Shown in pieces: positions 6,358 to 61,379 of a stretch of DNA of 64,000 bases (its first letter is position 1; the number at the start of each line of letters is the position of its first letter). The DNA is from Aliiroseovarius crassostreae. Lineage in GTDB: Bacteria > Pseudomonadota > Alphaproteobacteria > Rhodobacterales > Rhodobacteraceae. The stretch is from positions 1-64,000 of the forward strand of contig NZ_LKBA01000009.1 of NCBI RefSeq assembly GCF_001307765.1, read 5' to 3'. Below the pieces are notes generated by a model, which did not search any database, was not told where the DNA came from, and was given only the letters and a program-made list of their open reading frames with translations. Made by a program: the position numbers and the translations under genes.

Positions 6358-7116
6358 TCAGGCTTCGATCACAGAATTCAAATAAATGCGAAGCCGCTTG
6401 GCCGCGTTTGCGAGATGGCGCTCTGCCGCATCGGCCGCCGCCGCTTCGTTCCCTGCCTCCAAAGCGTTGTATATGGCCTCATGCTCCTCTTGAACCGCCT
6501 CCATAAGGTCAGCGTGGTTGGTCTTGGTGTTGCTGCGGGCCTGACGGATGATGTTACGTGCGCTGGATTCCAGGTGCTGGCAAAGCGAGACAAAATGCTG
6601 GTTATGCGTAGCCTCAACGATCGCTTGGTGAAACTGATAATCTTCTTCATCGCCCAAACGATCGCTTGCGATGGCATATTCCATGCCAATCAGTGCCCGC
6701 TTGATCTTTTTCAGATCCTCCGGCGTGCGGCGTTTCGCGGCGATGCGGGTGGCCGCGACTTCAATGGTCACGAGCAGCTCCATCGCCTCTTCGAGCTGAC
6801 CTACGTCAGAGACAGAGAAGGTCTGAAAGCGGAAAGCATTTGTTGCATCGCGCCGTGTCACATAGACGCCGCTTCCCGCGCGCGCGGCGACAAGCCCGTC
6901 GGATTTCAGCTGCGAGAGCGCTTCGCGCACCACCGCACGGCTGACCTTGTATTGCGTGCAAAGGTCACGTTCGGAGGGCAAGCGATCCCCGATCTCCAAG
7001 GCACCTGTCGAGATCTTCATGCCCAGGTCCTGTGCGATCTCGTCTGGCAGATGCCCGCTGCGCAAGGGCGCATTTTTTTGCGGCTGGTCCGCTGTGATTC
7101 GACTGGATTCTGACAT
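6358..7116 (-). CDS. GntR-family regulator, FadR/FCD subfamily
   Basis: The protein has ~252 residues from the ATG at 7116 (MSESSRI); an in-frame ATG at 7191 would add 25 residues and reach into the likely operator zone. The N-terminal winged helix is clear: LEIGDRLPSERDLCTQYKVSRAVVREAL, followed by the wing ARAGSGVYVTRR. The C-terminal helical part (QFHQAIVEATHN with a conserved His) fits the FCD ligand-binding domain, which usually binds a carboxylated metabolite. It is divergent from the LivK-type binding protein gene and its downstream catabolic genes, the usual place for a local repressor released by the transported substrate or a product. The inducer is not predictable from sequence. 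Confidence 0.85.
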   Translation of the reverse strand: MSESSRITADQPQKNAPLRSGHLPDEIAQDLGMKISTGALEIGDRLPSERDLCTQYKVSRAVVREALSQLKSDGLVAARAGSGVYVTRRDATNAFRFQTFSVSDVGQLEEAMELLVTIEVAATRIAAKRRTPEDLKKIKRALIGMEYAIASDRLGDEEDYQFHQAIVEATHNQHFVSLCQHLESSARNIIRQARSNTKTNHADLMEAVQEEHEAIYNALEAGNEAAAADAAERHLANAAKRLRIYLNSVIEA

Positions 7117-44208: not shown

Positions 44209-44670
44209 TCACAGCACATCAAGAGAGGTCTTGACCCGATCCATCACCACCGCCGTTTTGAACCGGTTGATATTGCTCTCCTCAAAGAAATAATCCTGGG
44301 TGAAGGCCTCGTATTCCTTGATATCCTTCACCGTGAGGATCAGCACGAAATCCCCCTCACCGGTGGTATAATAACATTGCTGCACAGCGGGGGCATGGCG
44401 CATCTTGCGTTTGAACGCATCCAGCGAGGCGCGGTTCTCACGCTCCATCATCACCTCAACGATAATGGTCATTTCACGGCCAAGTTTTGCGGGCGACAGC
44501 ACGGCGATCTCCTTTTCGATCACACCGCTGGCGCGCAGTTTCTGGAGCCGCTTCTGCACCGCGGGTGGCGACAAACCGACATCCTGTCCAATCGCCTCTG
44601 CGGTCATGCGCGCATTGCCCTGCACAAGGCGCAGGATCGCCAGGTCCTTCTCATCCATTCTGATTTCCAT
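44209..44670 (-). CDS. Lrp/AsnC-family regulator of the diaminopropionate-lyase operon
   Basis: The 153-residue protein (start ATG at 44670; an in-frame GTG at 44673 precedes it) has a helix-turn-helix (about 5-58, LAILRLVQGNARMTAEAIGQDVGLSPPAVQKRLQKLRASGVI) and a RAM ligand domain with GEGDFVLILTV. It is divergent from the M20-dpaL-M24-isomerase operon with a 119-bp gap. AsnC-type regulators also accompany ectoine-use operons. The likely inducer is an amino acid of the pathway, such as a diamino acid. Confidence 0.85.
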   Translation of the reverse strand: MEIRMDEKDLAILRLVQGNARMTAEAIGQDVGLSPPAVQKRLQKLRASGVIEKEIAVLSPAKLGREMTIIVEVMMERENRASLDAFKRKMRHAPAVQQCYYTTGEGDFVLILTVKDIKEYEAFTQDYFFEESNINRFKTAVVMDRVKTSLDVL

Positions 44671-44789
44671 CACAGTTTTGCCAATTTGGTCTGAATTTTA
44701 TCGCATATTGCCGAAATTGATACGCCATACCTCGTCTATTTTGCGGAATTCTGAACCTACCACAGCACGAGGACCCCCACGAGGACCCC
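44671..44789. promoter_or_regulatory. Divergent control region with a duplicated leader
   Basis: The region is AT-rich near the AsnC gene (44685-44720) and ends with two adjacent copies of CACGAGGACCCC (44764-44788 region). Each holds a GAGGA ribosome-binding core, and the second is directly before the M20 ATG. No exact operator can be set. Confidence 0.4.
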
Positions 44790-45935
44790 ATGGACGACTT
44801 CCATCGCCGCCTGACCGCTTTGCGACACGACCTTCACCGGCACCCCGAACTGGGTTTTGAGGAAACCCGGACCAGGCAGGTGATTGCAGACCACCTTCGC
44901 GCCCTTGGGATTGAGGTGGAGGAAGGTGTTGGGATCGTTGGTATTTTGCGCGCGGGACGGGGCAACCGGGCGATTGGGCTGCGCGCTGATATGGACGCGT
45001 TGCCAATCCATGAAACCACGCAACATGACCATGTTTCGACCACACCGGGGAAAATGCATGCCTGCGGCCATGACGGCCATGTCACCATGCTGCTGGGGGC
45101 TGCCGAGCGGCTGGCCCGGACCCCGGATTTCGACGGCACGGTGGTGTTCCTCTTCCAACCGAACGAGGAGCACGGGCTGGGCGCCAAAGCGATGATCGAC
45201 GACGGCCTGCTGACCCGTCACCCGATTGACGAGGTCTATGCCATCCACAATCTTCCCGGCGCGCCACTGGGTCAGATCTCATCCCGGACCGGTCAGATCT
45301 GCGCCAGCGAAAGCCTGTTTGAAATCACCCTCCAGGGTCAGGGCGGTCATGCCTCGATGCCCCATACCGGCGTGGACGCAATCACGGTTGGGGCGGAACT
45401 GGTGCTTGCCTTGCAGACCATCGTGTCGCGCAAACTGGCACCCGGCGCCGGTGCCGTGGTCTCGGTGACCGAGTTCCTGACCGACGGGCAGCGCAATGTC
45501 CTGCCCGGACGGGCCGTTTTGAAAGGCGATGTGCGCGCCCGCCTCCCCGAAGACCGCGAGGCGGTGGCAGGGTTCATGCATCAGATTGCACAGGGCGTTG
45601 CCGCCACACATGGCGTCACGGTGGACGTTCAGTTCAACACCGAATTCATTGAAACCCTTAATGCCGAAGCCCCGACACAGGCGGTCTACCGCGCGGGCGA
45701 GGCCGCGGGCTGTGATGTGGTTCGCAACCGCCCCCCAATGAGCTTTTCCGAGGATTTTGCCCATTTCTCCGCCGCGGTGCCGGGATGTTTCCTGCTCCTG
45801 GGCAATGGCGAAAAGGGGCCGCATGGCCAACCGCTGCACGCCAGCGATTACGATTTCAACGACGCTCTGCTGCCCATTGGGTCAGAGTTCTGGGTGCAGC
45901 TGGTCCGCGACCGTCTGCCCCCCCGCACAGACTGA
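44790..45935 (+). CDS. M20-family amidohydrolase (hippurate hydrolase-like)
   Basis: The 381-residue zinc peptidase-like enzyme has metal motifs HACGHDGHVTML (about 90-101) and NEEHGLGAKAM (about 127-137), and the dimerisation domain begins near GHASMPHTGVDA. It matches the HipO/AbgB/amino-acid N-deacylase group of M20D, which cleave N-acyl amino acids in the cytoplasm. As first gene before diaminopropionate ammonia-lyase it could free a diamino acid from an N-acyl form, the role DoeB plays in ectoine breakdown. The acyl group and substrate are unknown. Confidence 0.85.
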   Translation: MDDFHRRLTALRHDLHRHPELGFEETRTRQVIADHLRALGIEVEEGVGIVGILRAGRGNRAIGLRADMDALPIHETTQHDHVSTTPGKMHACGHDGHVTMLLGAAERLARTPDFDGTVVFLFQPNEEHGLGAKAMIDDGLLTRHPIDEVYAIHNLPGAPLGQISSRTGQICASESLFEITLQGQGGHASMPHTGVDAITVGAELVLALQTIVSRKLAPGAGAVVSVTEFLTDGQRNVLPGRAVLKGDVRARLPEDREAVAGFMHQIAQGVAATHGVTVDVQFNTEFIETLNAEAPTQAVYRAGEAAGCDVVRNRPPMSFSEDFAHFSAAVPGCFLLLGNGEKGPHGQPLHASDYDFNDALLPIGSEFWVQLVRDRLPPRTD

Positions 45936-45946
45936 AAGGACATCTG

Positions 45947-47140
45947 ATGCACAGCGCCTTCTCGACGGCATCCCTCCTCCACACCAAGGGCAATCCGCAG
46001 CCCGCCAAAGCGGCGTTTTCCGTTCTGTCAGAACAGGATTTCGCCGCAAGCTGGGCCGAGATCACCGCCTGGCCGGGCTATGCTCCGACCCCGCTGATCT
46101 CACTTGCCGGGCTTGCGCGCGAAATCAATGTGGGTGCAATCCACTATAAACACGAAGGACCGCGGTTCGGGTTGGGCAGTTTCAAGGCGCTTGGCGGGTC
46201 TTACGCCGCCTTGCGGGTGTTGGCACGTGAACTGTCCGCCCGGCTGGGACAGGAAATCACCCCCGCCGATATCCGCACAGGCCGCTATGCCGACGAGGTG
46301 AAAGACATCACTCTGGTGTCTGCCACTGATGGCAATCACGGCCGGTCGCTGGCCTGGGGGTGTCAGACCGTGGGCGCCCCCTGTCGCATCTATATCCATG
46401 CCGAGGTCAGCGAAGGGCGCGCCGAAGCCATGCGCGCGCTGGGGGCGGACGTGGTGCGCATCAAGGGGGATTACGACGAAAGCGTCCTGCTGGCAAAATC
46501 CGAAGCCGACGAAAACGGCTGGTTCGTGGTCTCGGACACCTCGTGGGAGGGGTATACCGAACCGCCCCGCGATGTGATGGCAGGGTATGGCGTGATGACG
46601 CGCGAGCTCTGCGAGGCCCTCGATCAGGCCCCGACCCATGTGTTTTTACAAGGGGGTGTGGGCGGGCTGGCCGCCTCGGTCGCAGCCGGATTGCGGCAGT
46701 ATTGGGGGCAGGACGCGCCACGCGTGGTGATCGTCGAACCCGAACTGGCGGCCTGCCTGTTTGACAGTGCCAGGGCGGGCAAGGCCACCAATTTTGCCAT
46801 TCAGCACGAAACCATCATGGCCGGACTGTCCTGTGGGGAACCTTCGGAAATGGCATGGGACATCCTTACGGAGGAGGCCAGTGACTTCCTGACCATTCCC
46901 GACAGCATTGTCGCACCAACCGTGCGTCTTCTGGCACGGCCCGAATTTGGGGATGAGGCCATCGAGGCCGGGGAAAGCGCCGTGGCGGGGCTGGCCGCCC
47001 TGATTGCGGCCCGACAGGATCCAGCCCTGTCCGACACACTTGGGCTGGACGCCCATTCGCGGGTGTTGTTTATCGGCTCAGAAGGGGTGACCGACCCGGA
47101 TATTTTTGCAGCCATCATGGACGGGCAGGACAATGTCTGA
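45947..47140 (+). CDS. dpaL: Diaminopropionate ammonia-lyase
   Basis: The PLP enzyme (397 residues) of the tryptophan-synthase-beta fold has PLP Lys80 in RFGLGSFKALGGSYA, and ATDGNHGRSLAWG, the DpaL form of the cofactor Asn motif. The glycine-rich phosphate loop is QGGVGGLAASVA, and CGEPSEMAWDIL is typical of DpaL. The known reaction turns D- or L-2,3-diaminopropionate into pyruvate and two ammonia. The start at 45947 follows AAAGGA. It overlaps the M24 gene. A threonine- or serine-dehydratase role is less likely given these blocks. Confidence 0.85.
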   Translation: MHSAFSTASLLHTKGNPQPAKAAFSVLSEQDFAASWAEITAWPGYAPTPLISLAGLAREINVGAIHYKHEGPRFGLGSFKALGGSYAALRVLARELSARLGQEITPADIRTGRYADEVKDITLVSATDGNHGRSLAWGCQTVGAPCRIYIHAEVSEGRAEAMRALGADVVRIKGDYDESVLLAKSEADENGWFVVSDTSWEGYTEPPRDVMAGYGVMTRELCEALDQAPTHVFLQGGVGGLAASVAAGLRQYWGQDAPRVVIVEPELAACLFDSARAGKATNFAIQHETIMAGLSCGEPSEMAWDILTEEASDFLTIPDSIVAPTVRLLARPEFGDEAIEAGESAVAGLAALIAARQDPALSDTLGLDAHSRVLFIGSEGVTDPDIFAAIMDGQDNV

Positions 47141-48311
47141 TGAATTGACCCGCGGCTTTCCTGAACAGGAGTTTGCCACCCGCACCGCAGCAGCGCAGGC
47201 GCGCATGGCGGAAACCGGACTGGCGGGGATGTTGCTGCTGAGCGAAGCAGAGCTGCGCTATTTCAGCGGGTTTCACACGCTGTTTTGGCAAAGCCCGACC
47301 CGCCCGTGGTTCCTGTTTGTGCCCCTTGAGGGCAAACCGATTGCAATCATCCCCGAAATCGGGGCCGCCCTGATGCGCCAGACCTGGGTTGAGGACATTC
47401 GCACATGGGCCGCCCCGGCCCCGGACGATGACGGGATCAGCCTGCTGACCGACCTTCTGTCGCCCCTTGCCGCACGGGGCGCAACCATCGGTGTGATGAA
47501 GGGCCACGAAACCGCCCTACGTATGCCGCTTGGCGATTACGAGCGGCTGATGGCGCAGCTCCCTGGTCTGCATATCGCCGATTGCACGGCGATTGTGCGC
47601 GGGCTGCGCATGGTGAAATCCGAACGCGAGATTGAAAAGCTCACCCGGATCTGTGCCATCGGGTCACACACATTCGCCGAGGTGCCCATGCTGGCCCATG
47701 AAGGCCAGGCCTTTGAGGACACGTTCCGCGCCTTTCGCCGCGAAGCCCTTTTGCAGGGCGCGGATGATGTGCCCTATCTGGTCGGTGGGGCCGATCAGGG
47801 GGGCTATCATGACGTGATTTCGCCCCCGTCCCGTCGCCCGCTGCAAAAAGGGGACATCATGATGCTGGATACCGGAATGACCTGGGACGGGTATTTCTGC
47901 GATTTTGACCGCAACTGGGCAATTGGTCAGGCGGATGATGCGTCACGCCGCGCCTATGATGTATTGTGGCGGGCCACCGAAGCCGGGATTGCGGCGGCCC
48001 GGCCCGGCGCCACCTGCGCGGATCTGTTTCATGCAATGCAGCGGGTCATTTCCGAACTGGATCAGAGCGGTGCCTCGGATGGCGATGTCGGCCGGTTGGG
48101 TCACGGGTTGGGAATGCAGCTGACCGAATGGCCCTCTCATGTGGCCTGGGACCAGACGGTGATCGAGGAAAACATGGTGCTGACGCTGGAACCCTCGCTG
48201 AGCTATGGCGATGGCCGTATCATGGTGCATGAAGAAAATATCGTAGTGCGGGCGGAGGGGGCCGAGCTGCTCTCTCACCGCGCTGCCCCGGAATTGCCGG
48301 TGATCTCATGA
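47133..48311 (+). CDS. M24-family creatinase/Xaa-Pro peptidase-like hydrolase
   Basis: The protein is 392 residues from the ATG at 47133, overlapping the dpaL stop. The creatinase N-terminal domain (about 15-150) precedes the pita-bread domain. Metal-ligand blocks are MLDTGMTWDGYFCDFDRNWA (two Asp), RLGHGLGMQLTEWP (His), LTLEPSL (Glu) and MVHEENIVV (Glu), so all five ligands are present. Close relatives include ectoine hydrolase DoeA/EutD, creatinase and dipeptidases. In this context hydrolysis of a cyclic amidine, guanidino compound or Xaa-diamino-acid bond is more likely than general peptide digestion. The substrate is unproven. Confidence 0.85.
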   Translation: MSDELTRGFPEQEFATRTAAAQARMAETGLAGMLLLSEAELRYFSGFHTLFWQSPTRPWFLFVPLEGKPIAIIPEIGAALMRQTWVEDIRTWAAPAPDDDGISLLTDLLSPLAARGATIGVMKGHETALRMPLGDYERLMAQLPGLHIADCTAIVRGLRMVKSEREIEKLTRICAIGSHTFAEVPMLAHEGQAFEDTFRAFRREALLQGADDVPYLVGGADQGGYHDVISPPSRRPLQKGDIMMLDTGMTWDGYFCDFDRNWAIGQADDASRRAYDVLWRATEAGIAAARPGATCADLFHAMQRVISELDQSGASDGDVGRLGHGLGMQLTEWPSHVAWDQTVIEENMVLTLEPSLSYGDGRIMVHEENIVVRAEGAELLSHRAAPELPVIS

Positions 48312-49054
48312 AACTTCCATTTGAAACCGACATGGGCATTGGCACCCAAGCCACCCTGGGCACCGTGGTCTTGGAAACGGACGAAACGCTGGAGCCGGAA
48401 TTTGCCCGGATGGTGCCCCGCCCCGGTGTGGCGCTTTACCATACCCGCATTCCGATGGTGGCAGAGATCGCCCCGGACACATTGGCGAAAATGGAGGCAG
48501 ACCTGCCCGCTGCGGTCCGGCTTCTGCCCCCGTCCCTGACATTTGATGTGATCGGCTATGGCTGCACCTCTGCCGCCACCGTGATTGGATCAGAACAGGT
48601 GGCAAAAGCGATCCAGACCGTGTTTCCCGGCGTGTTGGTCACGGATCCCCTTGCCGCCCTGATCGCCGCCGGGCGGAAAATCGGGGCAAGACGGCTTGGG
48701 TTTCTGACACCCTATGTGGCCAATGTCTCCAGCCGGATGCGCGGCAGATTGCAGGATGCCGGATTTGAGATCGCAGGGTTCGGCTCTTTCGAAGAAGGGC
48801 GCGACCCGGTGGTGGCCCGGATCAGCGAGGCCTCCATCCTGAACGCGGCGGTCACGGTTGCCAGAGCGCAACCCTGTGACGCGATCGTCATCTCCTGCAC
48901 CAACCTGCGCTGCCTCGATATTCTGGACGAGATCGAGGCCCGCACCGGGGTAACGGCGCTTTCCAGCAATCAGGCCCTGGCCTGGCACATGCTGCGACTG
49001 GCCGGCGTGCAGGATCCCCAGATCGGGGCGGGCCGACTGTTTCGAGAGTTCTGA
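48308..49054 (+). CDS. Asp/Glu racemase superfamily protein, maleate isomerase/EutA-like
   Basis: The 248-residue protein has two catalytic-type cysteines, Cys86 (GYGCTSAA) and Cys197 (ISCTNLRC), in the positions of maleate isomerase. Arylmalonate decarboxylase has only one. LGTVVLETDETLEPEF and PGVALYHTRI are typical of the EutA group found in ectoine-use operons. It overlaps the M24 gene by 4 bp and is last in the operon. It may racemise or isomerise a pathway acid or amino acid. The exact reaction of EutA-like proteins is not established to my knowledge. Confidence 0.8.
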   Translation: MKLPFETDMGIGTQATLGTVVLETDETLEPEFARMVPRPGVALYHTRIPMVAEIAPDTLAKMEADLPAAVRLLPPSLTFDVIGYGCTSAATVIGSEQVAKAIQTVFPGVLVTDPLAALIAAGRKIGARRLGFLTPYVANVSSRMRGRLQDAGFEIAGFGSFEEGRDPVVARISEASILNAAVTVARAQPCDAIVISCTNLRCLDILDEIEARTGVTALSSNQALAWHMLRLAGVQDPQIGAGRLFREF

Positions 49055-49060
49055 CCGGTA

Positions 49061-49150
49061 TCACATCTCGGCCTGTTTCATCCGCGCCATCAGGTTGGTT
49101 TTCAGCACAAATTGGTGAAACAGCGCCGCTGCCACAATCCAATGCGTCAA
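49061..49150 (-). pseudogene. C-terminal remnant of a cytochrome b561-like gene
   Basis: The minus strand reads VRLTHWIVAAALFHQFVLKT then NLMARMKQAEM and a stop at 49061. A helix with two His followed by [KR]-x-x-L-M-x-R-M is the usual end of cytochrome b561-type membrane haem proteins. No upstream part remains before the GAPDH promoter, so this is debris of a deleted gene. Only ~30 codons support the call. Confidence 0.4.
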
Positions 49151-52795: not shown

Positions 52796-53461
52796 TTAGA
52801 GACTGTTTTTGGACGAATTCTCCCCTAAAACCACAAGCGACCCGGCGGCGGCCAAGGCATCCTCCCGATCATGGGTCACCATCAGAACAGGCAGGTTTTG
52901 CGACCTCGCCTGCTCAAACACAACTGCGCGGATCTGATGGCGCAAGGTTTCGTCCAGCCCTGAGAACGGCTCATCCAGAAGAAGGGCCCGCGGCCGTGAA
53001 AGCAGGACACGCATCAACGCCACACGTGCACGCTGCCCCCCCGATAGCGTCGCAGGATCGCGGTCTGCAAATCCTTCCAACCCAACTTGTGCCAGTGCGT
53101 GTTCTACCGTGGCCCTGCGCTGTTCACGCCGGCCTCCGGGCGCCAGACCAAACGCCAAGTTCCCGCCGACCGACAGGTGTGGAAACAACAGGGCATCCTG
53201 GAAAAGGATCCCAATCCGGCGCAAATGAGGAGGCCTGTCGGTAATGTCCTCTCCGTTCAATATGATCCTGCCGCGCAGATCAAAAGCCGGAGCCAAGGAT
53301 CCGATCACGGCAGACAGAAGGGTCGATTTCCCAACCCCGGATGGCCCCATGAGCGTCAGCACCTCTCCGGGACTGATATGCCGGTCCAATGACACCAACG
53401 GCGTTTTATTGTGAGTGATTTCGACCCTATTCAGGCTCAATCCCATGGATTTATCCTTCAT
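52796..53461 (-). CDS. ynjD: ABC transporter ATPase, YnjD-like
   Basis: From the ATG at 53461 (MKDKSMGLSLNRVEI) the protein has 221 residues; it overlaps the permease stop by 11 bp. It has Walker A GPSGVGKST, Q-loop FQDALLFPHL, signature LSGGQRARVAL and Walker B ALLLDEPFSGLD. It resembles the single-ATPase units of iron/thiamine/sulfate importers. The neighbours (ynjC, ynjB and ynjF homologues) identify it as the ATPase of the uncharacterised YnjBCD system. Confidence 0.8.
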   Translation of the reverse strand: MKDKSMGLSLNRVEITHNKTPLVSLDRHISPGEVLTLMGPSGVGKSTLLSAVIGSLAPAFDLRGRIILNGEDITDRPPHLRRIGILFQDALLFPHLSVGGNLAFGLAPGGRREQRRATVEHALAQVGLEGFADRDPATLSGGQRARVALMRVLLSRPRALLLDEPFSGLDETLRHQIRAVVFEQARSQNLPVLMVTHDREDALAAAGSLVVLGENSSKNSL

Positions 53462-55151
53462 GTCGCAACCCCAATCTATTGCGCCAGACCAGCGCAGGGA
53501 CCAACAGTGCCAGGGCGAAAGGCGCAAGCGCCACCACGGTCTGCAACAACGCAAACACACCAATCGCGCGACGATCGCCCCCGGATGACAGGGCCAGAGC
53601 TTCAGTTGTCAGGGTTTCCACCCGGCCGCCGCCCATCAGCAGGGTTGGCAGATATTGCCCAACCGAAACCGCCACGCCGACCGCAAGCGCCGTCAGGACT
53701 GGTCCCAACAGCATTGGCAGGCGGATCTGCCAAAACACCCGGTTCGCAGAAGCGCCAAGCGACGCCGCCACCAAAGCCTGCCGCTGATCCCATTGTCGCC
53801 ACGGATCCTGAAGAGAAAGGCGCATGTAAGGCAACACAAAGACCAGATGAGCCAGCAGCACCCCTGCCCTGCCCGTCTCGATCCCAAACGACAGCATCAA
53901 GGTCTGTAAGCCCGGCAGGAACGCGGTTTGCGGCACCAGAAGCGGCAGATACAGAAGCCACATCCCACGGCTGCTCAGACGTTTGCCCTGACGCTCTTCT
54001 GCTTCAAGGCATCCTATGGTCAGAAACAGACCCAAACTCACCACAATTCCGGCAATCAAAGCGGTTTCAAGCGTGGCATTCAGGCTGCCCGTGGCATGTC
54101 GTTGCCAGCTGCGCAGGGTAAACTGGTCCGGCAACAGGTCAGGAAAGGTCCAAAACCCAGCAAATGACCAAACCAACATTCCCAACAGGCCCAGCATGAG
54201 CCACAGAACGACGCTGAACGCCAAGAACAGCCCTCCACCCCGTGCGGCACCATCCACCTCAAACCGAACGCCACGCGCCACCAGAAGGCCACAGAGACCC
54301 GCCAACACCCGTTCCAGCCCCCACCATAGGGCGAGCCCCCCCAGAACCAGCCCAAATTGCAGCAATGCGCCCGCAGCGGCGCGCAATCTGAACGCCAGAT
54401 CGGGGTCCGACATCCAGCGCACAATCTGAACAGAAAGGGTGGACGGCGTGGAAGGCCCAAGGATGACCGCAACGTCAACCACAGACATGGACCATGCCAG
54501 CACAACCAAAACCGGCAGTCGAATCCGTTGATAAATGGCGGGGAACACAGCGATCAGCCAACCTGCGACACGCCCATAGCCCAGGGATTGCGCCACAATC
54601 AGCCGCCGGTCTCCCCCAACCTGGCCCAACGCAGCAATGGACATCAACAACAGGAACGGAACTTCTTTCATCACCATTCCCGCGATCAGCGAAAGCCCCG
54701 CCGGGTCCTGCAGGATCAACAGATCCGGCGGTCGCTCCCACCCGGTCAGACCGGGTGAGATCAGTCGAAACACCCAACCGGATGGCGCAATGAGGAACGC
54801 GAACCCAAAGGCTGCTGCCGCATGCGGCACCGACAGTAATGGCGAGAGCGCGCGTTCAACCCAGGCAAACCATCGGGTGCCCGACCACCCCGCGAGAATC
54901 AGCGCCACAATGAGCAGTGACAAAGCGGCTGCCGCAAAACCGGTGGTCAGAGACAGCCAAACCGATGCCCCCAACCCCGGCCAGGCCAACAGGTCCCGAA
55001 ACGGCTCGGTCGATGGGCCGACATAGCCTGCGGCGGGCAGATGGCCAAAAGCGGGTAGGACCACGCCATAGAGTCCGGCAAAAACCGGGCCAAGCAGCAC
55101 CAGAAGGGTCAAGCCCGGTAAGACAGACAATAGGCTGGCTCGGTTTGACAT
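53451..55151 (-). CDS. ynjC: ABC permease with two fused membrane domains, YnjC-like
   Basis: The 566-residue protein has about 12 helices in two halves, each with an EAA-type loop (RVAGWLIAVFPAIYQRIRLPV near 205 and ASLGASANRVFWQIRLPMLLGP near 475). Such fused permeases occur in FbpB, ThiP and YnjC. The neighbouring YnjB-type binding protein and YnjF-type enzyme favour YnjC. It would form the whole membrane channel with a YnjD dimer. Confidence 0.8.
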   Translation of the reverse strand: MSNRASLLSVLPGLTLLVLLGPVFAGLYGVVLPAFGHLPAAGYVGPSTEPFRDLLAWPGLGASVWLSLTTGFAAAALSLLIVALILAGWSGTRWFAWVERALSPLLSVPHAAAAFGFAFLIAPSGWVFRLISPGLTGWERPPDLLILQDPAGLSLIAGMVMKEVPFLLLMSIAALGQVGGDRRLIVAQSLGYGRVAGWLIAVFPAIYQRIRLPVLVVLAWSMSVVDVAVILGPSTPSTLSVQIVRWMSDPDLAFRLRAAAGALLQFGLVLGGLALWWGLERVLAGLCGLLVARGVRFEVDGAARGGGLFLAFSVVLWLMLGLLGMLVWSFAGFWTFPDLLPDQFTLRSWQRHATGSLNATLETALIAGIVVSLGLFLTIGCLEAEERQGKRLSSRGMWLLYLPLLVPQTAFLPGLQTLMLSFGIETGRAGVLLAHLVFVLPYMRLSLQDPWRQWDQRQALVAASLGASANRVFWQIRLPMLLGPVLTALAVGVAVSVGQYLPTLLMGGGRVETLTTEALALSSGGDRRAIGVFALLQTVVALAPFALALLVPALVWRNRLGLRHEG

Positions 55152-55204
55152 TCACGCTCCCGACTGACGCATATCAGTCCCTAAACAGGCGAATAGAGAC
55201 AATT

Positions 55205-56413
55205 TTACTGCGACACACCGTAACGGGTTTGCCAGTCTTCCGAAATGCGCGTCATCCAGCTCGGATGAGGTTCAGCCTGCGCTTGCCCCAACTCTTCCGG
55301 CGACAAGGTCGCAATCCCCAAATCGAGGTCGGCAAACCGGGCTTTATCAGCATCAGACAACGCTGCAACATCCAGCACCGTGCCATATCCAAGCACATTC
55401 GGATCCTGGGCTCGGGCCTGCGCTTCTGGGCTCAGCAGAAAGTCGGCCAGAACCATGGCCCCTTCCTTGGAACCGGAATTATAGGGAATTGCCACGAAGG
55501 AGGCATTGCCAATGGTACCCTTTTGCAGGACGAATGTGCGGACCGTGTCAGGCAACTCATAGTTTGCAATGGCTGTTGACGCCGCACCTGGGCTGAAGGA
55601 AATCGCCAGATCCAGCTCTCCGTCATTGATCAGCTGGATTTGTCTGGTTCCGTTGGGAGGATACGCCCTGCCCTCGCGCCACAGAACCGGAGTGAGCTCT
55701 TCCAGATATGCCCAAAGCGGTCCGGTTACGTCGGCATAGGTTTCATCCGACATCGGTTGCGACAACAACGTGGGGTCTTCGATCAGGTCAACCAGCATCT
55801 GTTTGAGAAACGTGGTTCCCAGAAAGTCAGGCGGTTGAGGATAGGTAAATCGACCCGGATGCGCTTTTGCCCACTCAAGGATCTGCTTGGCCGACAGCAA
55901 AGGCGCATCGATATCTGCAGTGTCATACATGAACACGACCTGCGCCATCGCCCAAGGACTTTCATATCCTTCAACCGGAACGGTGAAATCGGTGCGTACC
56001 GTTTTGCCCTCAACATCAACATACCGCCAGCCGGGAAGCTGTTCGGCAAAAGGCCCAAACAACAGGTTTGCTTCTTTCATCGAAGCAAAATTCGCACCAT
56101 TGATCCAGATAAGATCAATCGCACCATCATCGTCCTTACCCGCCTGTTTTTCCACAAGCACCCGCGTCACCGCATCCGCCGTATCGGTCAACTTCACATG
56201 TTCAACCGTCACCCCATATGCTTCCTGCACCCGCTGGCCCGCCCAGGCAATAAACGCATTGGTCGTCGGCGATCCGCCCCAGGCATTCCAATAGACAGTT
56301 TGCCCCTCAGCTTTTTGGAGCACGTCACTCCAGTTGCCCGGATCTGTGTCGGCCTGCGCAGAGAACGGGACCAACGCCCCGAAAACGGCTGCCTTCAACA
56401 TTGTTTTGATCAT
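55205..56413 (-). CDS. ynjB: ABC substrate-binding protein, YnjB-like
   Basis: From the ATG at 56413, preceded by GGAGAG, the protein has 402 residues and a signal peptide (MIKTMLKAAVFGALVPFSAQA). The mature start has GQTVYWNAWGGSPTTNAFIAW, the YnjB hallmark, and DLIWINGANF and SFSPGAASTAIA later. It belongs to the iron/thiamine-type binding protein class, but the ligand of YnjB is not known to me. It is second in ynjF-B-C-D. Confidence 0.82.
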   Translation of the reverse strand: MIKTMLKAAVFGALVPFSAQADTDPGNWSDVLQKAEGQTVYWNAWGGSPTTNAFIAWAGQRVQEAYGVTVEHVKLTDTADAVTRVLVEKQAGKDDDGAIDLIWINGANFASMKEANLLFGPFAEQLPGWRYVDVEGKTVRTDFTVPVEGYESPWAMAQVVFMYDTADIDAPLLSAKQILEWAKAHPGRFTYPQPPDFLGTTFLKQMLVDLIEDPTLLSQPMSDETYADVTGPLWAYLEELTPVLWREGRAYPPNGTRQIQLINDGELDLAISFSPGAASTAIANYELPDTVRTFVLQKGTIGNASFVAIPYNSGSKEGAMVLADFLLSPEAQARAQDPNVLGYGTVLDVAALSDADKARFADLDLGIATLSPEELGQAQAEPHPSWMTRISEDWQTRYGVSQ

Positions 56414-56437
56414 GGTCTCTCCATCTTTCATATCAGG

Positions 56438-58302: not shown

Positions 58303-59700
58303 TCAAACCTCCTCAGCGTCATTCATTTGAAGATCTCGCCACCAGCAACCTAGGATCAGTTCCTTCACCTCGGCCCATGTGCGATCAAAGGTTTCCCGGC
58401 CCCGCACATATGTATCCCGATTAAACTCTCGGTAATCAGCCTCATAAATCCCATTCACTTGCTCACCAGCCTGCCCGACCATCGCCGTAACTTCCTGACG
58501 ATAGGTGGTCATGAAATCCCCGAAATAAGCCTGGATGACATTTGCCAGATCTGTCTGCTGAGCCGCATCAAACCTGGTGATCAGGGCGCGGACCGCATCC
58601 CATTCAAAGCGGACCTCCTCCAGCCCATGCTGACGTCGCATGGCATTTTCTCCCTCTTCGATTGATGCAAAGGTGGAATACAACATGTCAAAAAACCGGC
58701 CCGTAGAGTCGAATTCTAGAAAAGACGCGCCGAGCGGGATCAACAGAATATCGGCGGCCGCCAAGGCATTGATGGTCAGATATCCTAGGGCGGGGGGGGT
58801 ATCCAGGATGATCAGGTCATATTGAGAGAGCAGGTTTTCACTCTCCAGAAAACCAGTCAAGGCGTCCCAAAGCGGCCAGGAGCGCAGTTGCATCCGCCAG
58901 ACCGGCACCTGAAACTCAGCCCAATACAGGTTCAATTGGGCGCCGATCAGATCGATATTTGGCCAATGGGTGCTTTGAATAACGCGCGTGGCGTCAAATT
59001 CCAGCGCCTCCTTGAGTGTCTCGTCAAGTGGTAGGGTAGGGTGCCCGGCAGCGGCACGCACCTTGTTCTCTTCTTCCAAGAACTGGGCATAGTGCTTTGC
59101 CATGAGCGGAAAAGCGGTTTGCCATTCATCCTCAACCTGACCGCCCATGATCGACGTCATCGACCCCTGACTGTCGAGATCAATGACCAGAACCTTATAC
59201 CCGTCCAGCGCTGCGGACATGGCCAGATGCGCCGCGGTTGAGGTCTTTCCAACACCGCCTTTGAAATTCGCAACCGCCAGAACTTTTGCGTCCAATCCTT
59301 CCGGGCGCCATGGGCGGTATTCACGTGTCGACACACCTTCTGCGGCGAAATAATCGCGCAATGTCAGAACGTCGGATAATGTGAACCATTTTGAGCCACC
59401 ATCGCCTTCTCCTTGTGGGAGTGACGGGTTTTGTTTCAGAACTCTTCGAAAATGCGCGGGAGCAACTGGAATGAGGTATTTGCAAACTTCCCAGGTTGAA
59501 AACTTACGTAGCCGTTTTCGGCCATCCGGCGCATAGCCCCGCTTGGCCAAATCATCCCGACCACGCGCGGCAAAGCTGGCAGCCTTTGCAAATCTTGCCG
59601 TGTTAATTGGTTCGGAAAGTTTGCCTGCGGCCTCTTCTGGGTTAATGTTGAAATACGGAGGAGGAGGTGTTTGAGCTGCTCTAGCCATGGCTTTTCCCAT
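58303..59700 (-). CDS. parA: Partition ATPase ParA (plasmid type, with N-terminal DNA-binding domain)
   Basis: The protein has ~465 residues from the ATG at 59700 (MGKAMARAAQ; 59688 is also possible). The N-terminal ~130 residues contain a helix-turn-helix-like part (KFSTWEVCKYLIPVAPAHFRRVLKQ), as in type Ia ParA proteins that repress their own operon. The deviant Walker A KGGVGKTSTAAHLA is at about 147-160, Walker A' LVIDLDSQGS and Walker B LIILDTPPALG follow. It moves replicon copies apart with ParB-parS. parA and parB form one operon with site C in its promoter region. Confidence 0.9.
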   Translation of the reverse strand: MGKAMARAAQTPPPPYFNINPEEAAGKLSEPINTARFAKAASFAARGRDDLAKRGYAPDGRKRLRKFSTWEVCKYLIPVAPAHFRRVLKQNPSLPQGEGDGGSKWFTLSDVLTLRDYFAAEGVSTREYRPWRPEGLDAKVLAVANFKGGVGKTSTAAHLAMSAALDGYKVLVIDLDSQGSMTSIMGGQVEDEWQTAFPLMAKHYAQFLEEENKVRAAAGHPTLPLDETLKEALEFDATRVIQSTHWPNIDLIGAQLNLYWAEFQVPVWRMQLRSWPLWDALTGFLESENLLSQYDLIILDTPPALGYLTINALAAADILLIPLGASFLEFDSTGRFFDMLYSTFASIEEGENAMRRQHGLEEVRFEWDAVRALITRFDAAQQTDLANVIQAYFGDFMTTYRQEVTAMVGQAGEQVNGIYEADYREFNRDTYVRGRETFDRTWAEVKELILGCWWRDLQMNDAEEV

Positions 59701-59779
59701 ATGTGCGCTTTTTCTGCATTTATTGCGTAAACCATATGACATGACGGTTGCAATGAAAACATCCGATTGGAAAGGGAAG

Positions 59780-59796
59780 GGTTTCGTCACGAAACC
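59780..59796. promoter_or_regulatory. parS candidate C (upstream of parA)
   Basis: GGTTTCG-TCA-CGAAACC is a perfect inverted repeat ~80 bp before the parA start. It shares the GTTTCG-n3-CGAAAC core with sites A and B. Its place near the parA promoter suits both partition and autoregulation. Confidence 0.75.
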
Positions 59797-60188
59797 ATAA
59801 ATATTGGCAACAACAATGCTTTATTTTTTTTAAGGTATTTAGAATCTTTCGGGCATAAAACAAACGCAATTCCAAAGGCTTAACTTCATTAGGGGACCTG
59901 CTTACAGGAGTAAAGGAACCCTTTGACAGGATCAGGGGCACCAATACCCGTGTTGGAGAGGTCTGATTCGCAGGGAGAAGGGGCCCTGCCTCCAGTTTCT
60001 GAGGATAACTCACGCTTTTTGTGGATAACTGGGGTAAATGGGCGCGCCGCAGTCCCGTGTATGGGTACCTAAAACTCCCAAAGGTACCTGTTTCCGGTCC
60101 CGCAGAACTTCGCAAAGGAACCCGCTGCCGACTTGTCATAAGGTGCCTATCATGCGATTGTTGGCCAGTTTCAAAGAGGTCGAGCAGA
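59797..60188. other. Replication origin (oriV) with AT-rich stretch, DnaA boxes and degenerate iterons
   Basis: An AT-rich stretch (59797-59890, including an 8-T run) would melt first. Five degenerate repeats with core A-A-G-G-n-n-C-C start near 59894, 59915, 59937, 59960 and 59982, that is every 21-23 bp. A second group with GGTACC or GGAACC cores lies at 60064-60150. A perfect DnaA box TGTGGATAA is at 60020-60028 and a one-mismatch box is at 60000-60008. This is the expected layout for a Rep_3-type, iteron-controlled origin directly before its rep gene. Confidence 0.65.
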
Positions 60189-61379
60189 ATGGACCCGATT
60201 CCCAAAGACCGCCTGACAGGCGCATTACGGCGTGAAAGCGTCAAAAAGAACGTGGCAGCAATCCACGTATCCGGCAAGTTGTCTCTGTTGCAGCGAAAGC
60301 TGTCCAACGTGCTGTTGCTGAATGCCTATGATACGTTGACCTCTCAGGCCTGCCACAGGATTGACGCCCGAACCCTGTGCGCGATGATTGGGTATAACTC
60401 AAACGATTTCGATACTTTGAAAGCGTCGTTGCGCGGATTGGCCGAGACGGTTGCGGAATGGGATATGCTGGACGAAGCGGGGCGGCAGGAATGGGGCGTT
60501 TCGGCGTTGCTGTCCTATGCCAAGCTGAAAGGGGGGGTCTGCGAATATGCCTATTCCCCTGCGTTGGCAGAGAAATTGCATGACCCCAAGGTGTTCGCCC
60601 TCATAAACCTGAATATTCAGCGGCAGTTTACCGGCGGGCATGCGCTGGCGCTTTATGAGAACTGCTTTCGCTTTGTGAATACCGGGTCAACCGGATGGTG
60701 GACGCTGGAGATCTTTCGCCGGCTGATGGGGGTGGATGACAGTGACTATTACAAAAGTTTCAAACACCTGAATGCCAAGATTATCAAACCCGCCGTGGCA
60801 GAGGTGAACAAGGTCAGTGACATCATCGTCACGCCGGAAATCCGCAAGATGGGGCGGGCGGTGACGGACATTCGTTTCCTGATCAAACGCAACCCGCAGC
60901 TGACCATTCTGGATATTGATGACGGCAAGGGGCTGCGCAACACGGCGACCTATGACCGCCTGACCAGGCTTGGTGTGAGTGATCGCCTGGCGCGCCAGTG
61001 GATCGGCCAGCATGGCGATGTTTATGTGTCAGAGAAGATTGATCTGGTCGAGGCGCGGGATGGGGTGAAAAGCCCGGTCAAATACCTGTCGGCCGCAATT
61101 ACCGAGGATTACCAGCCACCGGAAACCGGGCAGGGCAGGGCGGTCACGCCACAAACGCGCGCCCGCGGGGCCCGGATTGGGCGTGTGCTGGAGGTGGCCA
61201 ACAAGCGTTCCCCTACACAAAAAGACGCTGATCGCCGCCTGTTCATGAGCCAATTGTCCGACCCGGATGCGCGGGATGATTTTGAACGGCATGGATGGAC
61301 CTCGGCATTGAATGTCGAGGCGATCTTTGCCTTTTGGGAAGATATGGTGCCTGGCCTGTTCGAGGATCTGAGCAGCTGA
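60189..61379 (+). CDS. rep: Plasmid replication initiator, Rep_3 superfamily
   Basis: From the ATG at 60189 (MDPIPKDRLTGALRRES) the protein has 396 residues; a longer frame from 60021 runs through the DnaA box and iterons and is rejected. The first winged-helix domain starts KKNVAAIHVSGKLSLLQRKL. The second (about 175-265) has GWWTLEIFRRLMGVDDSDYYKSFKHLNAKIIKPAVAEVN, SDIIVTPEI and MGRAVTDIRFLIKR, the diagnostic Rep_3 C-terminal pattern. It binds iterons and opens the origin. Divergent parAB, parS and ori complete a RepB-type roseobacter replicon. Confidence 0.85.
   Translation: MDPIPKDRLTGALRRESVKKNVAAIHVSGKLSLLQRKLSNVLLLNAYDTLTSQACHRIDARTLCAMIGYNSNDFDTLKASLRGLAETVAEWDMLDEAGRQEWGVSALLSYAKLKGGVCEYAYSPALAEKLHDPKVFALINLNIQRQFTGGHALALYENCFRFVNTGSTGWWTLEIFRRLMGVDDSDYYKSFKHLNAKIIKPAVAEVNKVSDIIVTPEIRKMGRAVTDIRFLIKRNPQLTILDIDDGKGLRNTATYDRLTRLGVSDRLARQWIGQHGDVYVSEKIDLVEARDGVKSPVKYLSAAITEDYQPPETGQGRAVTPQTRARGARIGRVLEVANKRSPTQKDADRRLFMSQLSDPDARDDFERHGWTSALNVEAIFAFWEDMVPGLFEDLSS

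Follow-up and report, generated by a model that had tools for sequence, protein, structure and literature searches.

Ectoine catabolism, as described for the eutABCDE-asnC-ssd-atf cluster of Ruegeria pomeroyi (excerpts of PMC13188858 and PMC5924519), combines an AsnC regulator, an M24 protein, a deacetylase, a pyridoxal phosphate (PLP) enzyme of fold type II and a EutA-type protein, which has been proposed to invert a stereocentre in hydroxyectoine (excerpt of PMC5924519). Two further described routes are relevant here. In the tail of the reductive urate pathway, the M20 hydrolase YgeY and the ammonia-lyase YgeX convert albizziin via 2,3-diaminopropionate (DAP) to pyruvate (excerpt of PMC12507026), and in Pseudomonas, DL-2-aminothiazoline-4-carboxylate (DL-ATC) is converted to L-cysteine by a racemase, a ring-opening hydrolase and a carbamoyl hydrolase (excerpt of PMC10821248). 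Here we analyze a gene set that shares parts with all three, encoded on a stretch of 64,000 nucleotides from Aliiroseovarius crassostreae (contig NZ_LKBA01000009.1, positions 1 to 64,000, called the window below). It consists of an asnC gene and a divergent operon for an M20 hydrolase, the diaminopropionate ammonia-lyase DpaL, an M24 protein and a EutA-like racemase. No paper describing this gene set was found in the literature searched, as judged by titles and the beginnings of abstracts. The features are as follows:

44209-44658, minus strand: asnC, Lrp/AsnC-family regulator, 149 amino acids from ATG, with Pfam AsnC_trans_reg and an HTH_AsnC-type domain
44659-44789, no strand: intergenic stretch of 131 bases between asnC and the M20 gene, divergent promoter/operator region
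44790-45935, plus strand: M20D amidohydrolase/N-acyl-amino-acid hydrolase, Pfam Peptidase_M20, nearest equivalog DoeB2 (below its cut-off)
45947-47140, plus strand: DpaL, diaminopropionate ammonia-lyase family, PLP fold type II, Pfam PALP, NF006058
47133-48311, plus strand: M24 "Xaa-Pro peptidase family" protein, Pfam Creatinase_N and Peptidase_M24, five metal ligands, Thr331
48308-49054, plus strand: EutA-like protein of the Asp/Glu-racemase/maleate-isomerase fold, Pfam Amdase, C86 and C197

The open reading frames and Pfam domains agree with the original prediction of an AsnC regulator divergent from a tightly overlapping M20-dpaL-M24-EutA-like operon: the M20 gene and dpaL are separated by 11 bases, dpaL and the M24 gene overlap by 8 bases, and the M24 and EutA-like genes overlap by 4 bases, all five genes being open and intact. 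The view that the operon draws on the family set of ectoine catabolism, with a linked Lrp/AsnC regulator, was likewise borne out. An alternative GTG start of asnC at 44673 would lengthen the protein by 5 amino acids, the 450-base reading also being the one annotated in A. crassostreae, and an in-frame start of dpaL at 45938 is also possible. When the divergent asnC-M20 gaps of relatives were aligned, no single conserved operator site was established. The three-gene core recurs in many marine relatives, but the records inspected call its products a peptidase, an Asp/Glu racemase and a lyase, names that do not connect them.

The conservation of the gene set was assessed with core genes located by tblastn or six-frame search and genes outside the core called by a codon-usage caller that was trained on the window and its relatives and overlooks genes at several distant loci, among them L090 and L168 (L and G numbers are our handles for loci and genomes). 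Searching the genome collection with DpaL yielded 17 loci, which belong to Rhodobacteraceae genera or to unclassified metagenome-assembled genomes; at least three contigs, of equal length, are shared with a second locus set (L017/L061, L019/L063, L022/L068). On these stretches, a EutA-like gene was found at 16, an M20 gene at 13, an M24 gene at 12 and asnC, within 3 kb of dpaL, at 11 of the 17 loci; all four enzymes were present together in 10/17, and all five genes in 8/17. Twenty further loci were chosen from genomes already showing the module and therefore carry the M24 and racemase genes (20/20) by construction. The larger survey covered 248 genomes of the window's family, counted a gene within 4 kb as a neighbor and relied on manually transcribed tables, in which the EutA and EutD neighbor and presence counts are lower bounds. 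It contained 126 M24 orthologues in 125 genomes, 97 of them with a DpaL-like neighbor, at least 101 with a EutA-like neighbor and at least 115 with one or the other. Conversely, M24 was also present in 119 of the 129 genomes with a DpaL-like gene, and the complete PLP-lyase/M24/racemase core lay within 4 kb in at least 82 of the 248 genomes.

The 138 DpaL-like rows of this survey split over three bands, which are identity bands and not tree clades (at least 58%; 43-55%; at most 45% with a shorter frame). In band 1, the window type with 20 rows, M24 was within 4 kb in 13 and a EutA-like gene in at least 17 rows. Band 3, which comprises 101 rows of shorter proteins with about 40% identity, had M24 nearby in 83, a EutA-like gene in at least 70 and both in at least 69 rows. 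These neighbor counts identify the PLP lyase, the M24 protein and the racemase as the constant core, to which M20 and asnC are frequent but optional additions in band 1. The gene-set conservation is far above chance. The four genes expected to be conserved together are thus indeed often found together, but the constant part comprises only three of them.

The M24 protein was examined most closely. In a tree of 51 proteins, in which two long single rows are of unsure placement, 30 module M24 proteins (support 99/99), 15 EutD proteins (100/100) and 4 creatinase-like proteins formed three separate supported groups. The metal ligands D246, D257, H324, E353 and E368 are present in 30/30 module M24 proteins, whereas the 15 EutD sequences have E, P/T, Y, M and E/D at these positions and the creatinase-like sequences have N, A, H, E and D, which leaves them without part of the metal ligands. 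The M24 protein had been called DoeA-like; by ancestry, this was ruled out by the tree and the metal-site residues, as the protein belongs to a clade of its own, apart from EutD and with the intact metal site that EutD has lost. Its NCBIfam scores (PepQ 81.9, DoeA_2 55.1 and EutD 43.2 bits) are nowhere near the respective cut-offs, which for the EutD model TIGR02993 is 613. The predicted fold (mean pLDDT, the predicted local distance difference test score, 91.9) matches PepE and prolidases first, followed by EutD at rank 5, creatinase at rank 10 and, as a more distant match, DddP at rank 44. Creatinase and DddP share the M24 fold and are M24 proteins in non-peptidase use, as their PDB titles also indicate.

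Two histidine positions, which we take to be those of the catalytic histidines of prolidase and Xaa-Pro peptidases, separate the module M24 proteins from peptidases. The second is Thr331 in the window and Thr in 29/30 module M24 proteins, and the first is His in the window, but His in only 6/30 overall; another M24 protein of the same genome (L102) keeps both. An ordinary dipeptidase, which had been set beforehand as the outcome that would speak against the original prediction, is thus not what these residues describe. Judged by them, the M24 protein is neither a member of the EutD clade nor an ordinary Xaa-Pro peptidase, and as the metal ligands are kept while the peptidase histidine is lost, the simplest inference is a metal-dependent hydrolase of a non-peptide bond. 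In L070 (6795-7925), the gene beside dpaL encodes a second type of M24 protein, which lacks the metal ligands and scores 75 bits with TIGR02993, and a C-terminal fragment similar to it was seen in L063 (about 6510-6797), where the usual M24 gene is not beside dpaL; in both genomes, an M24 orthologue is located elsewhere.

The window's DpaL scores 479 bits with the NCBIfam model NF006058 (cut-off 276), and its PDB matches include 5ygr and 4d9g. It keeps the lysine and both aspartates at the positions of K77, D120 and D189 of E. coli DpaL, which we take to be the PLP lysine and the catalytic aspartates. Among 75 DpaL sequences, the lysine is found in 74 (one gap), the D120 position is Asp in 61 and Ala in 14, and the D189 position is Asp in 75/75, as it is in 20/20 sequences of L195-L214. 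Both NF006058 and the active-site residues therefore support the assignment to DpaL; the stricter equivalog TIGR03528 is reached by the DpaL of Vibrio cortegadensis (565.3 bits, with 553.9 for NF006058) and not by the window copy. E. coli YgeX acts on both DAP isomers (excerpt of PMC12507026). D-serine was rejected as a DpaL substrate, as D- and L-serine are extremely poor substrates according to an excerpt of PMC6393727, and beta-N-methylamino-L-alanine, which was considered since the lyase acts on both DAP isomers (excerpt of PMC9414260), gathered no support. As a side aspect, another DpaL band (L075; L099, G246; L234, Rhizobium daejeonense) is accompanied by carbamoylase-type M20 and nitrilase-like or N-carbamoyl-D-amino-acid hydrolase genes, identified by reading in L075 and by annotation in L234, which also has a dihydropyrimidinase; these partners suggest a ureido-DAP route that resembles the last part of reductive urate degradation.

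The predicted two-Cys character of the EutA-like protein was confirmed, with C86 and C197 present in the window and both cysteines kept in 29/29 sequences of one alignment and 55/55 of another. Its model (pLDDT 94.2) matches maleate isomerase and arylmalonate decarboxylase. The protein is not a canonical EutA, as it scores 174.9 bits with TIGR02990 (cut-off 318), a cut-off that was reached in 3/248 genomes among the matches listed. In a racemase tree of unknown root, 11 EutA-model matches, of which only 3 exceed the cut-off, form a group of their own (99/97), and the window racemase lies elsewhere; the module members of L155 and Photobacterium adjoin EutA, and that of L164 adjoins a Sinorhizobium meliloti protein. 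This S. meliloti relative, on pSymA, stands beside a gene annotated as L-ATC hydrolase, which has no NCBIfam match, and a carbamoylase-type M20 gene. The M20 protein of the window was presumed to be a deacetylase, and DoeB2 (NF038260) is its best-scoring model and nearest equivalog, but the score of 321.8 remains below the cut-off of 550, whereas the generic amidohydrolase model is exceeded (314.7 versus 153.75). For the M20 proteins of Vibrio and Photobacterium, the generic amidohydrolase model comes first (340.8 and 320.8) and DoeB2 second (313.1 and 312.1).

The gene set also recurs beyond close relatives, in rearranged forms. Of 337 Alphaproteobacteria, 48 have an M24 orthologue at 1e-60, including 5 members of the window's family, and 40 stretches were fetched out of 51 M24 rows (4 of the 40 from that family); 17 contained a DpaL-like gene, 21 a EutA-like gene and 13 both, and the window's complete arrangement of asnC and M20-dpaL-M24-racemase occurs again in L152 and L155. 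Ehu-type transporters adjoin the set in some genomes. In L056/L096 and in Roseovarius pelagicus, the set is split and inverted next to such a transporter. The transporter of L056/L096 (EhuA, C and D above their cut-offs, EhuB 177 versus 191) adjoins an FAD oxidase, M24 and the racemase. Roseovarius pelagicus combines ehuCD, a substrate-binding protein, asnC, an FAD oxidoreductase, the racemase and a GntR gene with M20-dpaL-M24. On plasmid records, Photobacterium sp. TY1-4 carries dpaL, AsnC and racemase-M20-TRAP-M24, while dpaL-RidA-PAS and M24-BCCT-M20 run in divergent directions in V. cortegadensis. In Rhizobium and Agrobacterium pusense, AsnC is accompanied by dpaL-M24-ABC-Zn-dependent hydrolase, the last a carbamoylase-type M20; in Rhizobium sp. 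32-5/1, dpaL is annotated as two pieces. A shared pathway is the best explanation for a set that recurs although gene order, strand and transporter change.

The neighboring transporters of relatives vary among Ehu, TRAP, BCCT and Pot types, and literature excerpts place some carriers of each of the Ehu-type ABC, TRAP and BCCT families within ectoine clusters or next to them. As the Photobacterium TRAP protein matches general TRAP models only and the Vibrio BCCT protein scores 463 with the glycine betaine carrier model (cut-off 650), the models do not fix the cargo of either carrier. Flanking genes were rejected as a clue to the substrate since they differ between most loci read, and the transporter links consequently rest on a minority of loci. 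Several neighbors deserve mention in their own right. In L066 (3195-7257), a branched-chain-type ABC transporter and a hydantoin-racemase-like gene, named by reading and with no NCBIfam match, stand directly upstream of dpaL-M24-racemase and replace M20. FAD oxidase genes with a GcvT-like part, which are common in these bacteria, repeatedly adjoin M24 or the racemase (L056 1232-3688, L153, L142 and L231 2424-4874, the last annotated as FAD-dependent oxidoreductase), and an N-methylated substrate is possible in view of this recurrence. A Pot-type ABC transporter and an M24 gene that we take to be creatinase-like adjoin the module in L206, L199, L167 and L071/L098; the host genome (L101) has a creatinase-like gene elsewhere, 80% identical to the L206 copy. 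Creatinase-like and ureohydrolase-like genes, named by reading, near these few loci outside the window constitute a guanidino lead.

Taking these data together, we are confident that the operon encodes one dedicated catabolic pathway, and DAP or a DAP-like beta-substituted alanine is probably its last intermediate. From the observed gene set, its conservation, the protein families, the active-site residues and the relatives' transporter neighbors, we infer a substrate, reactions and an order of steps as follows. An ectoine-like zwitterion with a DAP skeleton, most likely a cyclic amidine or guanidine or an N-acyl or N-carbamoyl derivative of DAP, would be taken up by an amino-acid- or osmolyte-type transporter encoded outside the operon; within this choice, the cyclic amidine or guanidine is a tentative suggestion. 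The racemase would supply the needed stereoisomer, the M24 protein would open or cleave the amidine or amide, the M20 protein would strip the acyl or carbamoyl group, and DpaL would convert DAP to 2-aminoacrylate and ammonia, so that the pathway would end with pyruvate and ammonia. That the four enzymes together degrade an ectoine-like or acylated DAP derivative in this way is, in our judgment, about evenly balanced between being right and wrong.

Precedents exist for the individual parts. As YgeY and YgeX take albizziin to pyruvate, the last two steps (M20 and DpaL) have a tested precedent, although the module M20 belongs to a different subfamily, and M24 and the racemase replace the hydantoinase and carbamoyltransferase of that route. 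The first three steps have a logical precedent in the ATC pathway with its racemase, ring hydrolase and carbamoyl hydrolase, and the related S. meliloti racemase stands beside such genes; the S. meliloti ring hydrolase is, however, not an M24 protein, and the ATC product cysteine is not a DpaL substrate. With the ectoine cluster, the module shares Ehu-type transporters at some loci besides the enzyme families, but its M24 protein keeps the metal site and lies outside the EutD clade, DpaL replaces EutB, the operon has no EutC, Atf or Ssd, and it occurs in genomes without EutD.

A number of observations weigh against this degradation route. M20 is missing from 4/17 DpaL loci and from 20/20 of the further loci chosen for the module, so the deacylase is not always needed nearby, and M24 is missing from 5/17 DpaL loci (L016, L017, L019, L020 and L024). 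In the 17 rows of band 2, M24 was nearby in 1 (G033, which has the Ala residue typical of band 3) and the racemase in 0 among the matches listed. Within the class survey, 23/40 M24 stretches contained no DpaL-like gene and 19/40 no EutA-like gene, and M24 hence works in other company too. The racemase was not found within the stretches of V. cortegadensis and of Rhizobium and A. pusense. On an Aminobacter plasmid, the gene after racemase-M24-M20 encodes a cystathionine beta-lyase and not DpaL; M24 occurs without the rest of the set in Mesorhizobium japonicum (with a D-amino-acid dehydrogenase) and Bosea (with ehuBCDA), M20-dpaL occurs alone in Ruegeria THAF33 and dpaL alone in S. meliloti R14, and racemase relatives accompany a D-amino-acid dehydrogenase in Shinella and Caballeronia. 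The window DpaL reaches 319 bits with TIGR03528, below the cut-off of 532. Alanine occupies the D120 position in all 14 sequences at no more than 41% identity of the 75-sequence set and in 20/20 of L195-L214, and this commonest version of the module may accordingly act on another compound; one band-3 enzyme scores 260 with NF006058 (cut-off 276), and band 3 may thus not consist of strict DAP lyases. The window gene list has no transporter gene inside the operon, and the nearest ABC genes (52796-56431) lie beyond glyceraldehyde-3-phosphate dehydrogenase (GAPDH), hydroxyisourate hydrolase and BioY-type genes on the opposite strand. The loss of D120 in band 3, the optional M20, the racemase-less Vibrio and Rhizobium sets and the Aminobacter cystathionine beta-lyase stand against a single fixed substrate.

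It was also considered that the module is an accessory of ectoine or 5-hydroxyectoine catabolism that replaces EutABC or acts on hydroxy-diaminobutyrate derivatives. The L206 operon (G141) joins eutB-eutC-aminotransferase to dpaL-like-M24-EutA-like-Pot-type ABC-creatinase-like genes, divergent from eutD-argE, with EutB, EutC, EutD, ArgE and PotA each above one model cut-off, although EutB and EutC fail TIGR02991 and TIGR02992; the presence of EutB as a separate PLP enzyme alongside speaks against an accessory role. In L147/L220 (G413), the module stands beside Pot-type ABC genes and genes that, by their sequence, resemble eutB/C/D/E, asnC, ssd and atf, and the EutD is 60% identical to that of L206. 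EutD (TIGR02993 at 1e-60) was present in at least 104 of 125 genomes with M24 versus at least 56 of 123 without, a co-occurrence uncorrected for kinship or genome size, and it lies 3.0-8.3 kb from the module M24 in at least 7 genomes picked by eye (G024, G036, G055, G082, G129, G141, G196). However, 9 of the 82 complete-core genomes are without EutD at 1e-60 among the matches listed, the Vibrio copy holds a strict DAP lyase as judged by the models, and the best EutD-type match in the host genome (G000, rated 100% complete) reaches 64.2 bits with a cut-off of 613. As there is no strong EutD match, canonical ectoine catabolism in the host was ruled out. We therefore regard an accessory role as unlikely and take the ectoine links to mean that the substrate resembles ectoine without being ectoine itself.

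A sulfur-analogue pathway, for example for 2-aminothiazoline-4-carboxylate, would end in beta-elimination of cysteine or another beta-substituted alanine instead of DAP. The pSymA racemase relative beside the annotated L-ATC hydrolase and M20 genes and the Aminobacter cystathionine beta-lyase at the position of the PLP lyase agree with it, but the residues of the window-type DpaL are those of DAP ammonia-lyases, and the S. meliloti racemase is placed with a single module racemase (L164) and not with that of the window. No annotated ATC hydrolase was present in the module stretches of named records, with no search aimed at that family, and altogether such a pathway appears quite improbable. Even less credible is a peptide-utilization operon, in which M24 and M20 would be ordinary dipeptidases and the PLP enzyme would deaminate released serine or threonine. 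The NCBI name "Xaa-Pro peptidase family protein" and PepE (4ege) as the best PDB relative by sequence and fold are in line with peptidases, but the altered histidine positions, both of which L102 of the same genome retains, are not, and the linked racemase would be left without a role. Hardly credible at all is the idea that the operon forms the end of a purine (ureido-DAP) pathway resembling reductive urate degradation, despite the YgeX-YgeY precedent, the hydroxyisourate hydrolase gene 1.2 kb downstream of the operon and the hydantoinase/oxoprolinase-family gene upstream of the biotin genes, both of which are also present on the A. crassostreae plasmid. Hydantoinase, SsnA and YgfK are not in the operon, hydroxyisourate hydrolase was not found in the 17 DpaL-locus stretches, and it is the other DpaL band (L075, R. 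daejeonense) that carries carbamoylase and dihydropyrimidinase partners instead.

As Rep3 initiator and ParA-type ATPase genes are located at 58303-61379, the window is plasmid or chromid DNA and the operon is plasmid-borne here. An A. crassostreae plasmid shows 95-97% DNA identity to the window across the compared stretch with the same gene order, including the biotin genes ahead of the operon and the GAPDH and hydroxyisourate hydrolase genes behind it, and M24 was found at 97.7% identity or more on eight A. crassostreae plasmid records. Directly behind the operon, 75 bases (49061-49135) are left over from a cytochrome b/b6-domain gene; the A. crassostreae plasmid has this gene complete, flanked by the racemase and GAPDH genes, and about 545 bases are gone from the window. 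A. crassostreae is an oyster pathogen.

In its most specific form, the proposed degradation of a DAP derivative would be an undescribed pathway that degrades a 2-substituted imidazoline-4-carboxylate, a relative of ectoine with a five-membered ring formed by cyclization of acyl-, carbamoyl- or amidino-DAP, which is a speculative and rather doubtful assignment. If true, M24 would act as an amidine hydrolase that depends on metal and is not a peptidase, and we know of no earlier M24 protein of this kind. The M24 active site, with its metal ligands kept and its peptidase histidine lost, is in any case a concrete target for new chemistry in a large family named after peptidases. About every second genus sampled in the window's family (125/248) has M24, and if these bacteria share one substrate, a nitrogen-rich compound commonly eaten by marine bacteria would come to light; if the imidazoline assignment is true, this would be an imidazoline-type compound as a common but unrecognized nitrogen-rich marine solute.

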